Source: Bryobacteraceae bacterium CoA2 C42 (lineage in GTDB: Bacteria > Acidobacteriota > Terriglobia > Bryobacterales > Bryobacteraceae). Taken from it: a stretch of 47,767 nucleotides of DNA. Under the pieces are notes generated by a model. The model saw only the letters and a program-made list of their open reading frames with translations, was not told the DNA's origin and did not search any database. Made by a program: the position numbers and the translations under genes. The stretch's first letter is position 1, and the number at the start of each line of letters is the position of its first letter. The stretch is from assembly GCA_019931245.1 (NCBI GenBank), contig JAINDL010000048.1, positions 1 through 47,767 of the forward strand, read 5' to 3'. This document shows, in pieces, positions 40,312-43,764 of the stretch.

Positions 40312-41078
40312 GGGCGGCTCCGCTGGCGGCGGGCTTCATAGAGGAGGATGCCGGCGGCGACGGCGGCGTTGAGGCTTTCGACGGTTTCGGTGGGGATGGT
40401 GACGGGCTGGCAGGCGGCGAGGATCTCGGGCCGGACGCCGCGACCTTCGCTGCCGATGACGATGCCGCAGGGCTGGCGCCAGTCGACGGCGTCGATGGGT
40501 TGGGCGGCGGAGGCGGCGGTGGCGTAGACGGGAAAATCGAAGGCGGGGAGTTCGGCGGCGGCGAGGAAGGGGAGGCGGAAGAGGGAACCGGCGGCGGCGC
40601 GGAGCGTTTTGGGGTGGTAGGGGCTGGCCGAGCCTTTGAGGAAGATGACGCCGGTGGCGCCGAAGGCTTCCGCCGAGCGGACGATGGCGCCGGCGTTGCC
40701 GGGGTCCTGGAGGCCGTCGAGCAGGACGACGAGGGCGGGGTGGCCGAGCAGGCCGGCGAGGGTCCATTCCGGCGGGCGGACGAGGGCGAGAATGCCTTGC
40801 GGGGATTCGGTGGTGGAGAAGGTGGCGAAGGTGGCGGGATCGACCGAGAAGAGGCGGGTTTCCGGGGGGCAGGAGTCGACAAGCGCCTCGTTTTGTAACG
40901 CCGCAGGGGTAGCGATCACTGTGCCGATGGGGAGACGGCTACGCCGGGCTTCCTCGAGCAGATGAAAGCCTTCGGCGACGACGAGTCCGTCGTCGGTGCG
41001 GACACCTTTTTGAATGGCCTTCCGGATGGTGGTGCAAAGCGGGTTCCGGGCGCCGAGCGGAGTAACGGGAGCGGCCAT
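40308..41078 (-). CDS. TrmH/SpoU-family RNA 2'-O-methyltransferase
   Basis: A 256-residue SPOUT methyltransferase with an N-terminal substrate-binding segment (LVVAEGFHLLEEA) and the SpoU knot: motif 1 LDGLQDPGNAGAIVRSAEAFGA, motif 2 GIVIGSEGRGV, motif 3 IPTETVESLNAAVAAGILLYEA. It modifies a ribose 2'-OH in rRNA or tRNA; the site cannot be read. ATG 41078 is used because upstream frame sequence is antisense to the divergent YdcF gene. Its stop overlaps the rarA start. Confidence 0.94.
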   Translation of the reverse strand: MAAPVTPLGARNPLCTTIRKAIQKGVRTDDGLVVAEGFHLLEEARRSRLPIGTVIATPAALQNEALVDSCPPETRLFSVDPATFATFSTTESPQGILALVRPPEWTLAGLLGHPALVVLLDGLQDPGNAGAIVRSAEAFGATGVIFLKGSASPYHPKTLRAAAGSLFRLPFLAAAELPAFDFPVYATAASAAQPIDAVDWRQPCGIVIGSEGRGVRPEILAACQPVTIPTETVESLNAAVAAGILLYEARRQRSRP

Positions 41079-41111
41079 TCCAGTAAAATGATAAGGATAC
41101 CGCACGGGCTC

Positions 41112-41699
41112 ATGAAACGAGGCATCCAATTCGGGCTGGTTCTGGCTGGGACGGTTTTATGTGCATGGCTGGGCTGGATTACGGTGGAGATCCGGAAGCA
41201 GTCGGTGATTGAAGAGGCGTCGCCGGCGGACGTGATTGTGATCATGGGTGCGGCGGAGTACCGGGGTCGGCCGTCGCCGGTGCTGCGGGCGCGGCTCGAT
41301 CATGGTTTGGAGTTGTTCGAGCAGGGCTTGGCGCGGCGGATTCTGACGACGGGCGGGGCGGGCGGCGACCCGGTGTTTACCGAAGGCGCGGTGGGGCGGA
41401 ACTACCTGATGAGCCACGGGGTGCCCCCGGAGGCGATTCTGCTGGAGGACGAGGGCGACAGCACGGTGCACTCGACGATTGCGGTGGCGGAAATAATGAG
41501 GCGCTCCGGGCTCAAGAGCTGCATCTTAGTGAGCGATGGGTATCATATCTACCGGGCCAAGAAGATGCTGGAGTTTCGGGGTCTTGAAGTGTTCGGCTCG
41601 CCGCGGTCGATCAAGCACGAGACGGGCTTGCAGGACTGGTGGCTCTACCTGCGCCAAGCGGCGGGGTATGCGCTGTGGACGGCCGGCATCACGATTTGA
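41112..41699 (+). CDS. YdcF-like (DUF218) membrane-anchored protein
   Basis: A 195-residue protein with one N-terminal membrane anchor (RGIQFGLVLAGTVLCAWLGW) and a DUF218/YdcF domain: DVIVIMGAAEYRGRPSPVLRARLDHGLELF, LTTGGAGGDPVFTEG, LEDEGDSTVHSTIAVAEI and VSDGYHIYRAKKM. The family includes SanA/YdcF proteins linked to envelope integrity; E. coli YdcF binds SAM in structural work. ATG 41088, eight codons earlier, is an alternative start. It lies 12 bases before the DUF2256 gene and appears to head the split-photolyase transcript. Confidence 0.88.
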   Translation: MKRGIQFGLVLAGTVLCAWLGWITVEIRKQSVIEEASPADVIVIMGAAEYRGRPSPVLRARLDHGLELFEQGLARRILTTGGAGGDPVFTEGAVGRNYLMSHGVPPEAILLEDEGDSTVHSTIAVAEIMRRSGLKSCILVSDGYHIYRAKKMLEFRGLEVFGSPRSIKHETGLQDWWLYLRQAAGYALWTAGITI

Positions 41700-41711
41700 G
41701 CGGCCCGGCCG

Positions 41712-41858
41712 GTGAAGGGCGTCAAGAAGCAGCACCTGCCGGAGAAGATCTGCCGGCGTTGCGGGCGGCCGTTTACCTGGCGCAAGAAATGGGAACGGGA
41801 TTGGGAGCAGGTACTTTACTGTAGCGACCGCTGCCGCGGGGCGAAGGGGAAGGGATGA
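41712..41858 (+). CDS. DUF2256 zinc-ribbon-like small protein
   Basis: A 48-residue protein, easily missed because of its length. It carries CRRCGRPF and CSDRCR, two Cys pairs (CxxC at residues 14-17, CxxxC at 37-41) separated by a Trp-rich basic stretch ([14 protein letters not shown]), the pattern of DUF2256. DUF2256 genes are often found next to, or fused with, cryptochrome/photolyase-type genes. The start is GTG 41712. The stop overlaps the next gene by ATGA, so the pair is coupled. A zinc-binding partner of the photolyase-like protein is the likeliest role (inference). Confidence 0.85.
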
Positions 41859-42622
41859 GGCGAGAGTTTAGCTCCCGCGCGGAGCTGGTGGAATATGTGA
41901 AGCAGGAGTTTCCGGAGTGCCTCCCGCACGGGGAACAGGTGAGTGAGACGCGGGGCGGACGGCGGGCGGCCGAGGCGCTGCTTGAGAAGGTGAATCCGGA
42001 CCGGTACGCGCGGTCGCGGAACTTTTTGAGCGGGGCGGTGACGCGTCTGGCGCCTTACCTCCGGCACGGGGTGCTGTCGCTCGGCGAGGTACGGCGGCGG
42101 GCGCTGGCCAAGCCGAACCACGAAAAGCTGGTGAACGAGTACGCCTGGCGCGATTACTGGCGGCGGGTGTACGGGCAGATTGGCGAGGGGGTTTGGAAGG
42201 ACCGTGAGGAGCCGAAGCGGCGCTGGCGGAGCGCGCGGGAGCTGGGCGAGTTGCCGGAGGACATCGCGGGTGCGCGGACGGGCCTTGCGTGCATGGATGG
42301 TTTCGTGACTGAACTGGTGACCACCGGGTACATGCATAACCATGCGCGGATGTGGTTTGCATCCTATGTGATCCACTGGCGGCGGGTACGGTGGCAGGCG
42401 GCGGCGAAGTTTTTCCTGACGCACCTGCTCGACGGGGACCCGGCGAGCAATAACCTGTCGTTTCAGTGGGTGGCGTCGACGTTCGGCGCCAAGCCTTACC
42501 TGTTCAACCGGGAGAATCTTGAGAAGTACACGGACGGCAAGTACTGCCGGGGATGTGCGCGGGCGGGCGATTGTCCGTTCGGGAAGTCGTATGAGCAGAT
42601 TGACCAGGAGCTGTTCCAATGA
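41855..42622 (+). CDS. FAD-binding domain-only photolyase/cryptochrome-like protein
   Basis: A 255-residue protein equal to the C-terminal helical FAD domain of photolyases, without the N-terminal antenna domain. Visible signatures are [59 protein letters not shown] and [25 protein letters not shown], the flavin- and DNA-facing elements. The C terminus has [12 protein letters not shown] (CxxCx5C), a possible metal or Fe-S site. It is coupled on both sides by ATGA overlaps: DUF2256 before, an antenna-like domain gene after. Together they look like one photolyase split into two chains in inverted order. Confidence 0.88.
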
Positions 42623-42990
42623 AGCCGGTAGTTTGGATGCACGAAGATTGTATGCGGCCGATTGTACCGGGGGCGCCGGCGATTTTCGTTTTTGAGAACA
42701 GTGGCCATTCGCTGAAGCGGCTGGTGTTTCTGTACGAGTGTCTGCTCGAGCTGGACGTGGAGATTGAAAAAGGGGAGATTGTGCCGCTGGTGCGGGCTTT
42801 TGCGGCGCGGCACGGGGCGAGTAAGATTGTGACGGCGTTTACGGAGTGCCCGCGGCTGATGGGTTACGCGAAGACGCTGGGGGCGGAGGTGGTGAACGAT
42901 GATCCGTTTGTGGCGGCGGCGGGGCCGTTCGATTTGAAGCGGTTTTCGCGCTACTGGCAGCGGATTGAGCGGCAGGCGCTAAAGCTTTAA
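42619..42990 (+). CDS. Stand-alone photolyase antenna-like alpha/beta domain
   Basis: A 123-residue protein that resembles the N-terminal Rossmann-like domain of photolyases: first strand PVVWMHEDCMRP (compare VVWFRRDLR), then IFVFENSGHSLKRLVFLYECLLELDVEIEKG, VPLVRAFAARHGASKIVTAFTECPRLMGYAKTLGAEVV, and a short helical end. It is shorter than the usual antenna domain. The overlap with the FAD-domain gene by 4 bases suggests that the two chains assemble into one enzyme. Assignment is by strand/helix pattern and context and is less certain than for its neighbour. It overlaps the convergent LytTR gene by 12 bases. Confidence 0.7.
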   Translation: MKPVVWMHEDCMRPIVPGAPAIFVFENSGHSLKRLVFLYECLLELDVEIEKGEIVPLVRAFAARHGASKIVTAFTECPRLMGYAKTLGAEVVNDDPFVAAAGPFDLKRFSRYWQRIERQALKL

Positions 42991-43764
42991 GAGCGAGCGG
43001 AGGCGCTTGGTCTGCACGCGGCTGACGGGGACTTCGGTGCCGCGCTTGTCATCCATTTTGAGTTGAAAACTGGACTTGAACCAGGGGATGACCTCCTTGA
43101 TGCGGTTGATGTTGACGAGCCAGGAGCGGTGGACGCGCCAGAACGTGTCGGGGTCGAGCGTGGACTGGAGCTCTTCGATGGTTTTGTAGGTGGATTCACC
43201 TTCGATGCCCTGGCAGACGATGGTGATGAGCCCGTCGTCGATGGTGGCGAAGATGATGTCCTGGGAGTCGACGATGAGGTTGCGGTTGTCGCGGCGGATG
43301 AGGACTTTGGCGCGGACGGGCCCGGTGCGGACGATGATGGGGCCTTCGGGGGCGGGTTTCTGGCGATCGGCGATGGTGCGGCGGGCGCGGTCGATGGCCT
43401 GCGCGAGGCGTTCCTTCTCGATGGGCTTGAGGAGGTAATCCATGGCTTCGAGCTGGAAGGCTTCGACGGCGTAGTGGTCGAAGGCGGTGGCGAGGATGAA
43501 GTGGGGGAGCGGGATCTCTTTTTCGCGGAGGCGCTTGATGACGCCGAGGCCGTCGAGGCCGGGCATTTGAACGTCGAGGAAGACGAGGTCGGGTTCGAGG
43601 TCCTCGATGAGCTTGAGGGCTTCGAGACCGTTCGAGGCGGTGGCGGCGACATCGATATCGGGGAACTCTTTGAGGAGGAAGGCGAGTTCATCGCGGGCGA
43701 GGGCTTCATCATCGACGAGGATGGCCGTAATGGTTTGCGGGGGAGCGGCGGCGCGGCTTTGCAT
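42979..43764 (-). CDS. LytTR-family response regulator
   Basis: A 261-residue regulator with a receiver domain (VDDEALARDEL; phospho-acceptor Asp in LVFLDVQMPG, about residue 64; Lys in YLLKPIEKERL) and a C-terminal LytTR DNA-binding domain (IIFATIDDGLITI, FWRVHRSWLVNINRI, VSRVQTKRLRSLL). LytTR regulators are usually paired with 5TM or LytS-type kinases; none is adjacent, so it is an orphan here. The start ATG 43764 has only a weak ribosome site (CGGA). Confidence 0.93.
   Translation of the reverse strand: MQSRAAAPPQTITAILVDDEALARDELAFLLKEFPDIDVAATASNGLEALKLIEDLEPDLVFLDVQMPGLDGLGVIKRLREKEIPLPHFILATAFDHYAVEAFQLEAMDYLLKPIEKERLAQAIDRARRTIADRQKPAPEGPIIVRTGPVRAKVLIRRDNRNLIVDSQDIIFATIDDGLITIVCQGIEGESTYKTIEELQSTLDPDTFWRVHRSWLVNINRIKEVIPWFKSSFQLKMDDKRGTEVPVSRVQTKRLRSLLKL

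Follow-up and report, generated by a model that had tools for sequence, protein, structure and literature searches.

Probable two-subunit, domain-inverted DNA photolyase of Phr4/Phr5-like layout encoded behind a DUF2256 gene in a Bryobacteraceae genome

We analysed a 47,767-nucleotide contig of Bryobacteraceae bacterium CoA2 C42 (JAINDL010000048.1; hereafter the window), in which three plus-strand genes are joined by two 4-nt ATGA overlaps. The first (41712–41858, GTG start) encodes a 48-residue DUF2256 zinc-ribbon protein (PF10013, E = 3.6e-22; 78.7 bits against a gathering cut-off of 25), the second (41855–42622, ATG start) a 255-residue FAD catalytic chain of the SPL/Phr4 type (PF03441, E = 1.3e-19) and the third (42619–42990, ATG start) a 123-residue, photolyase N-domain-like alpha/beta chain of the Phr5 type, assigned using its family profile, AlphaFold (AF2) and Foldseek. 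An earlier note on this DNA had described the three genes, their overlaps and the DUF2256 protein correctly, and its view that the FAD and antenna-like domains lie on two chains, in an order inverted relative to classical photolyases, was upheld by the open reading frames, Pfam and the family profile. None of the three genes has the classical class I/III arrangement of PF00875 followed by PF03441 in one chain, and PF04244, the N-domain of FeS-BCP/PhrB enzymes, matched neither the FAD chain nor the 123-residue chain. The neighbourhood search for DUF2256, FAD and antenna domains that the note had proposed recovered the trio, with DUF2256 first, the FAD chain second and the alpha/beta chain third, in all 7 genomes with the 123-residue chain among 151 genomes of the class; the layout is therefore beyond chance.

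A YdcF/ElyC-like DUF218 gene (41112–41699, plus strand; PF02698, E = 5.7e-24) stops 12 nt short of the DUF2256 start codon and had been thought to lead the same transcript. Of 94 loci, 4 have it, each being the window or from its genus, and membership of the unit is unsupported beyond that genus; we therefore rejected it as a member and regard it as an upstream neighbour, probably outside the unit. On the other side, a LytTR-type response-regulator-like gene, named by reading (42979–43764, minus strand), converges on the alpha/beta gene, the two ends overlapping by 12 nt. No sigma-70-like promoter matched within 40900–43100, a consensus that says little for the host organism. The window genome has one other PF03441 gene above cut-off, on a different contig; L001, the second photolyase of this genome, falls below every NCBIfam cut-off. 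With regard to a possible 8-HDF antenna, this genome has two good matches to the cofH model, one of them MqnC, and both lie below the curated cut-off.

The PF03441 match covers profile positions 3–126 of 203, so the catalytic domain is shortened, and it bears out the reading of a photolyase FAD domain without the antenna domain. Against the PDB, the FAD chain matched 38 distinct sequences at E ≤ 0.01, including 1tez and 1dnp (best 2e0i, E = 1.2e-14). A scan of genome contigs confirmed at least 593 relatives, the best 80 of which were used; with the window and L004–L015 these gave an alignment of 93 rows, near-copies included. Y51, R99, N162, W180, D193, N199 and W205 are conserved in all 93 rows, E95 in 88, W98 in 92, M166 in 87 and D195 in 92. 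E95, W98, N162 and M166 align with 1tez and are positions that we take to bind the cyclobutane-type lesion (CPD). Position 203 (42461–42463), where a tryptophan would presumably lie next to FAD, is W in 88/93 rows and F in 5/93, including the window; F203 is common to the window and two loci of the same genus (L004, L005).

In a tree made up of 94 FAD-chain relatives and six photolyases as outgroup, the relatives all fell on one side of a branch (SH-aLRT 98). The window FAD chain grouped with L021 and L024 (Chloroflexi) and with L017, not with L007–L009 and L045 from Bryobacteraceae (SH-aLRT 90), a placement that suggests transfer of the gene between phyla. L076, L032 and L090, whose MAG titles name Klebsiella, Tatlockia and Paceibacterota, grouped with other phyla; these titles may reflect binning errors. 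A second photolyase-like gene lies near the SPL-type gene on the same strand, downstream in L007, L047, L051, L054 and L077 and upstream in L017, L021, L030 and L074; it matched PF04244 in L021 and PF00875 plus PF03441 in L007 and L074.

The FAD chain ends in a CxxCx5C motif (C231, C234 and C240; residues 231–240, 42545–42574, plus strand), from which a metal cluster had been considered possible; a fourth conserved cysteine, C146 (42290–42292, plus strand), was absent from that description. All four candidate Fe-S ligands are cysteines in 68 of the 93 rows, one is in 14 and none in 11, and a state with two or three was seen in 0/93. Because the four are conserved as a set, a metal cluster is likely, and the chain probably holds a [4Fe-4S] cluster. 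Four cysteines also occur in some SPL members. The window spacing of 85/3/6 equals that of C169/C254/C257/C263 in cyanobacterial Phr4, which have been likened to those of A. tumefaciens PhrB (PMC9426592).

Searched alone, the 123-residue chain (P0003) matched nothing in Pfam or NCBIfam and gave a single chance match in the PDB (E = 0.51). A family profile built from 66 aligned relatives recovered 35 PDB sequences at E ≤ 10, of which 25, including the first 21, are cryptochromes or photolyases (best 8p4x, E = 2.1e-5); the matches fall within the first ~180 residues, that to the fusion construct 8dd7 lying at 264–360. PF00875 was matched by 49 of the 66 family members at E ≤ 1 (best 2.3e-7) but not by P0003 itself, Usp by 10 (best E = 0.002) and PF04244, weakly, by 6 (best E = 0.031); L018 and L061, scanned as full proteins, fell below the PF00875 cut-off. 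Profile–profile comparison of the family gave 93.7% with the N-domains of seven ordinary photolyases and 87.8% with two PhrB-like N-domains. AF2 predicted five strands and four helices (pLDDT 91.6, pTM 0.80). Foldseek returned 1235 PDB matches to this model at E ≤ 10, none at 0.001 or better (best E = 1.7e-3), and 47 of the 50 matches listed, including ranks 1–27 (TM 0.45–0.57), were cryptochromes or photolyases. The photolyase N-terminal fold, on which the earlier note had staked its reading of this protein, thus survived prediction and comparison; the family profile, the PF00875 matches and Foldseek rule out an unrelated small protein. R34, F37, G52 and W113 are kept in 66/66 members, followed by F109, E40, R108, an acidic residue at 26, Y39, W6 and H8. 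Several of these conserved residues would lie at strand ends, where a cofactor pocket might be expected, and in the last helix. A search of viral contigs for the family gave 17 pattern matches, 0 of them confirmed.

Among the best 80 of at least 593 FAD-chain relatives, the alpha/beta domain is encoded by the adjacent downstream gene in 61, lies C-terminally in the same chain in 10 and is encoded elsewhere in the genome in 8, with 1 locus cut by a contig end; a separate alpha/beta gene upstream of the FAD chain was found in none of these 80. Seven of the 10 fusions were recognized by the family profile (L078 ends at a contig end) and three, the Burkholderiales group L093–L095, by profile–profile comparison only (89.6% to the 123-residue family; 60 shuffled controls ≤1.6). 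The eight non-adjacent loci were scored as having no alpha/beta gene within 1.3–4 kb of downstream sequence. Whole-genome searches, which here and in the phylum-wide counts below score a restricted set of initial candidates in each genome and may miss some, found the gene for all nine non-adjacent or contig-end loci (13/13 genomes searched matched). In the one-chain fusions examined, the FAD part comes first and the alpha/beta part second. In Deinococcus plasmids the two parts are either fused, FAD first (L010, L011), or divided between two genes (L012). A quick tree of 100 rows requires at least six changes between the fused and the separate state, with long branches present and well-supported branches alone forcing fewer changes (2 for the label 'fused').

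Of 194 cyanobacterial genomes, 34 have the FAD chain at E < 1e-100, and the alpha/beta gene at E < 1e-40 was found in exactly these 34 (raw counts, shared ancestry left in); one of the FAD-chain matches, in G425, contains an internal stop. The pairs lie within ~2 kb of each other in 19 genomes, on different contigs in 8 and, in 7, on a single contig with over 0.4 Mb between them. Six more genomes had weaker FAD-chain matches (E = 1e-54 to 1e-70) and no alpha/beta match at E = 1e-10. The C-terminus in one of these, G409, belongs with the L093–L095 Burkholderiales group (99.6%). Those of the other five, all small genomes (G490, G520, G544, G546 and G552), gave 81.1% to L014/L015 and 0.2% to the 123-residue family in profile–profile comparison, and are therefore NewPHL/Phr7-like, of the Z-domain type. 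In Acidobacteriota (247 genomes), 8 had the FAD chain (E < 1e-60) and 4 of those, and no others, had the alpha/beta gene (E < 1e-20). Three of these four pairs, from one genus, lie 0.97–1.45 Mb apart on a single contig. The other four FAD-chain genomes have longer frames, whose C-termini fall into a group formed by L126–L128 with L013 (87.4% to the 123-residue family) and one formed by L129 with L014 and L015 (4.3%), the latter again of the Z-domain type.

We used AlphaFold to predict the structure of one natural fusion, the 406-residue Methylotenera protein L081 (FAD part 1–254, alpha/beta part 283–405), from 91 rows, in 39 of which the aligner had misplaced 1–4 alpha/beta residues. The model (pLDDT 94.1) had a pTM of 0.92, which would imply that the placement of the smaller domain is not uncertain; this is an indirect measure of the interface, and comes from another species' fusion, not from the window pair. 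Foldseek aligned photolyases over about 190–280 columns of the model, taken as the FAD part. The best E value was that of Thermus 2j07 (3.4e-8), and the highest TMq among the 50 matches listed was that of PhrB (0.47–0.48).

The earlier note was not aware of a characterised example with this layout, and we rejected the view that it lacks precedent because two reports describe one. Two WH7803 genes, with diel expression like that of phrA, were suggested to form a heterodimeric photolyase (PMC3441193, 2012), and in the phr4 and phr5 genes of marine Synechococcus/Cyanobium the order of the FAD and photolyase domains is reversed, with phr6 as a fusion (PMC9426592, 2022). The cysteines are present in Phr4, and the choice between a frameshifted single chain and two subunits was left undecided for phr4/phr5 (PMC9426592). 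By sequence, the window can be assigned to the Phr4/Phr5 type: it has a FAD chain without an N-terminal alpha/beta domain, a separate alpha/beta chain encoded by the next gene, the inverted order and the identical cysteine spacing, and its relatives' fusions are ordered as in Phr6. It differs in belonging to another phylum, in its 4-nt ATGA overlap in place of the 7-bp gap of Phr4/Phr5 and in the DUF2256 gene that leads the set; neither PMC9426592 nor PMC3441193 is among the papers found to contain the word DUF2256.

Similarities to three further groups are partial. SPL (Xu et al. 2021) has been described as a FAD domain lacking the alpha/beta domain and proposed to be ancestral (via PMC9649867, PMC9178010 and PMC9498864). 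Like SPL, the window FAD chain has no N-terminal alpha/beta domain; unlike the described SPL, the best 80 of at least 593 relatives have the domain in trans or C-terminally (3 by profile–profile comparison only, 1 as a contig-end fragment). The relatives sampled do turn out to carry the domain, encoded separately or at the C-terminus, and this has a bearing on the evidence that SPL can provide on photolyase origins. NewPHL has an inverted topology with the catalytic domain first (via PMC13274461 and PMC9426592; further passages in PMC12083526 and PMC8948257). The window shares this topology and differs in dividing the domains between two chains. The NewPHL/Phr7 enzymes of Emmerich et al. 2020 are reportedly single chains that end in a Z-domain. 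FeS-BCP/PhrB-type (6-4) photolyases (PF04244) share with the window-type enzymes the four cysteine ligands, the top TMq noted above for L081 and a DUF2256 gene just upstream in five small cyanobacterial genomes, whereas their classical order, single chain of ~500 residues and PF04244 N-domain each set them apart from the window.

On the basis of these comparisons, we consider that the window genes encode a two-subunit, domain-inverted DNA photolyase with Phr4- and Phr5-like layout and motifs, within the SPL/NewPHL part of the superfamily (probability roughly 0.84). By homology, the 255-residue chain would hold FAD and the lesion pocket, and the 123-residue chain is the photolyase alpha/beta domain, provided in trans. 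This smaller chain most probably binds the FAD chain in the manner of the natural fusions, so that it would complete or cap it, and may also carry an antenna cofactor. Light would excite reduced FAD, which would pass an electron to a pyrimidine dimer; E95, W98, N162 and M166, together with published SPL/NewPHL work, point to CPD as first choice, perhaps in single-stranded DNA. Repair, metal binding and complex formation are what we infer for the window proteins. Several observations count against this reading. E. coli carrying phr4/phr5 genes from RS9916 survived UV-C better with a non-significant light dependence, and a phr4 mutant, whose UV-C survival was 20–30 times less, was normal under UV-B (PMC9426592). 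F203 and, for the 123-residue chain, the lack of a Pfam match and of a Foldseek match at E 0.001 or better, as well as the low TM of its first 27 Foldseek matches, weigh on the same side.

If ribosomes shifted frame at the junction, the two genes could yield one functional chain, as Haney et al. suggested for phr4/phr5; this would fit the one-chain fusions found in nature and the constant 7-bp spacing in their strains (PMC9426592). Among the 61 adjacent pairs, however, spacing varies, the frame relation is spread 37/15/9 over the three frames, and each downstream gene has its own candidate start codon, with an overlap of 4 nt in 28 pairs. Frameshifting is excluded for far-apart pairs, such as those of 7 cyanobacterial and 3 acidobacterial genomes, because the genes are unlinked; intact separate open reading frames were present at three unlinked pairs. 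Separate chains must therefore serve in those cyanobacterial genomes, which settles the one-chain or two-subunit question for them in favour of two chains. A frameshifted product is hardly credible for the window.

The same domains are common to cryptochromes, and F203 could alter photoreduction in the window protein, so that a light sensor might be envisaged. Against this, the FAD and lesion-pocket positions are conserved across the family, another photolyase-like gene flanks 14 of the best 80 of at least 593 loci (8 on the same strand), and phr4/phr5 have UV-C phenotypes (PMC9426592); we regard a sensor as very unlikely and repair as the more likely function. What is repaired may be argued from the same data: Haney et al. 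predict a (6-4) lesion from the Fe-S cysteines, which the window shares with PhrB-type enzymes, and a phenotype under UV-C with none under UV-B (PMC9426592) agrees with that, as does the PhrB match to the fusion model. The putative CPD-contacting residues shared with 1tez, each conserved in 87–93 of the 93 rows, nevertheless make a (6-4) photolyase unlikely, and we favour a two-subunit CPD photolyase.

DUF2256 adjoins the FAD chain in 20 of the best 80 of at least 593 loci, upstream in 16 and downstream in 4. In cyanobacteria, it is present in 89/194 genomes, among them each of the 40 that gave an SPL-type match and 55 of the 58 with PF04244 (one of the 58 a 48-position fragment). Counted together, 72 of 75 genomes with an SPL-type or PhrB-like photolyase have DUF2256, compared with 17 of the 119 that have neither type (odds ratio 144, Fisher p = 1.5e-32, ancestry uncorrected). 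In five small cyanobacterial genomes, DUF2256 precedes the PF04244 gene by 30–133 nt, both being on one strand. The link is not exclusive, since for 8 of the 11 DUF2256 genomes among 119 Acidobacteriota a search at E 1e-30 gave no SPL-type match; six of these eight are of one genus with longer forms, the others being G198 and G259. A single literature search on DUF2256 returned two papers, neither of them about photolyases to judge by the titles, and its tracking of SPL-type and PhrB-like enzymes is possibly new. The DUF2256 protein probably acts as a small zinc-binding helper of window-type and PhrB-like photolyases, and through this association a widespread small protein, so far without a known function, acquires a role that can be tested. 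A broader proposal, which we hold tentatively and at somewhat less than even odds, is that SPL and PhrB-like photolyases of bacteria generally have DUF2256 as an accessory subunit, that the window genes thus specify a light-driven repair complex of three parts (FAD/Fe-S chain, trans alpha/beta chain and zinc-ribbon helper), and that its 'short photolyase' branch represents a two-chain or inverted enzyme and not a domain-less ancestor. In the 1.9-Mb cyanobacterial genome G520, genes for DUF2256, a PhrB-like photolyase, a peroxiredoxin-like protein (named by reading) and a NewPHL/Phr7-like protein stand in a row (L237, 1032–4476).
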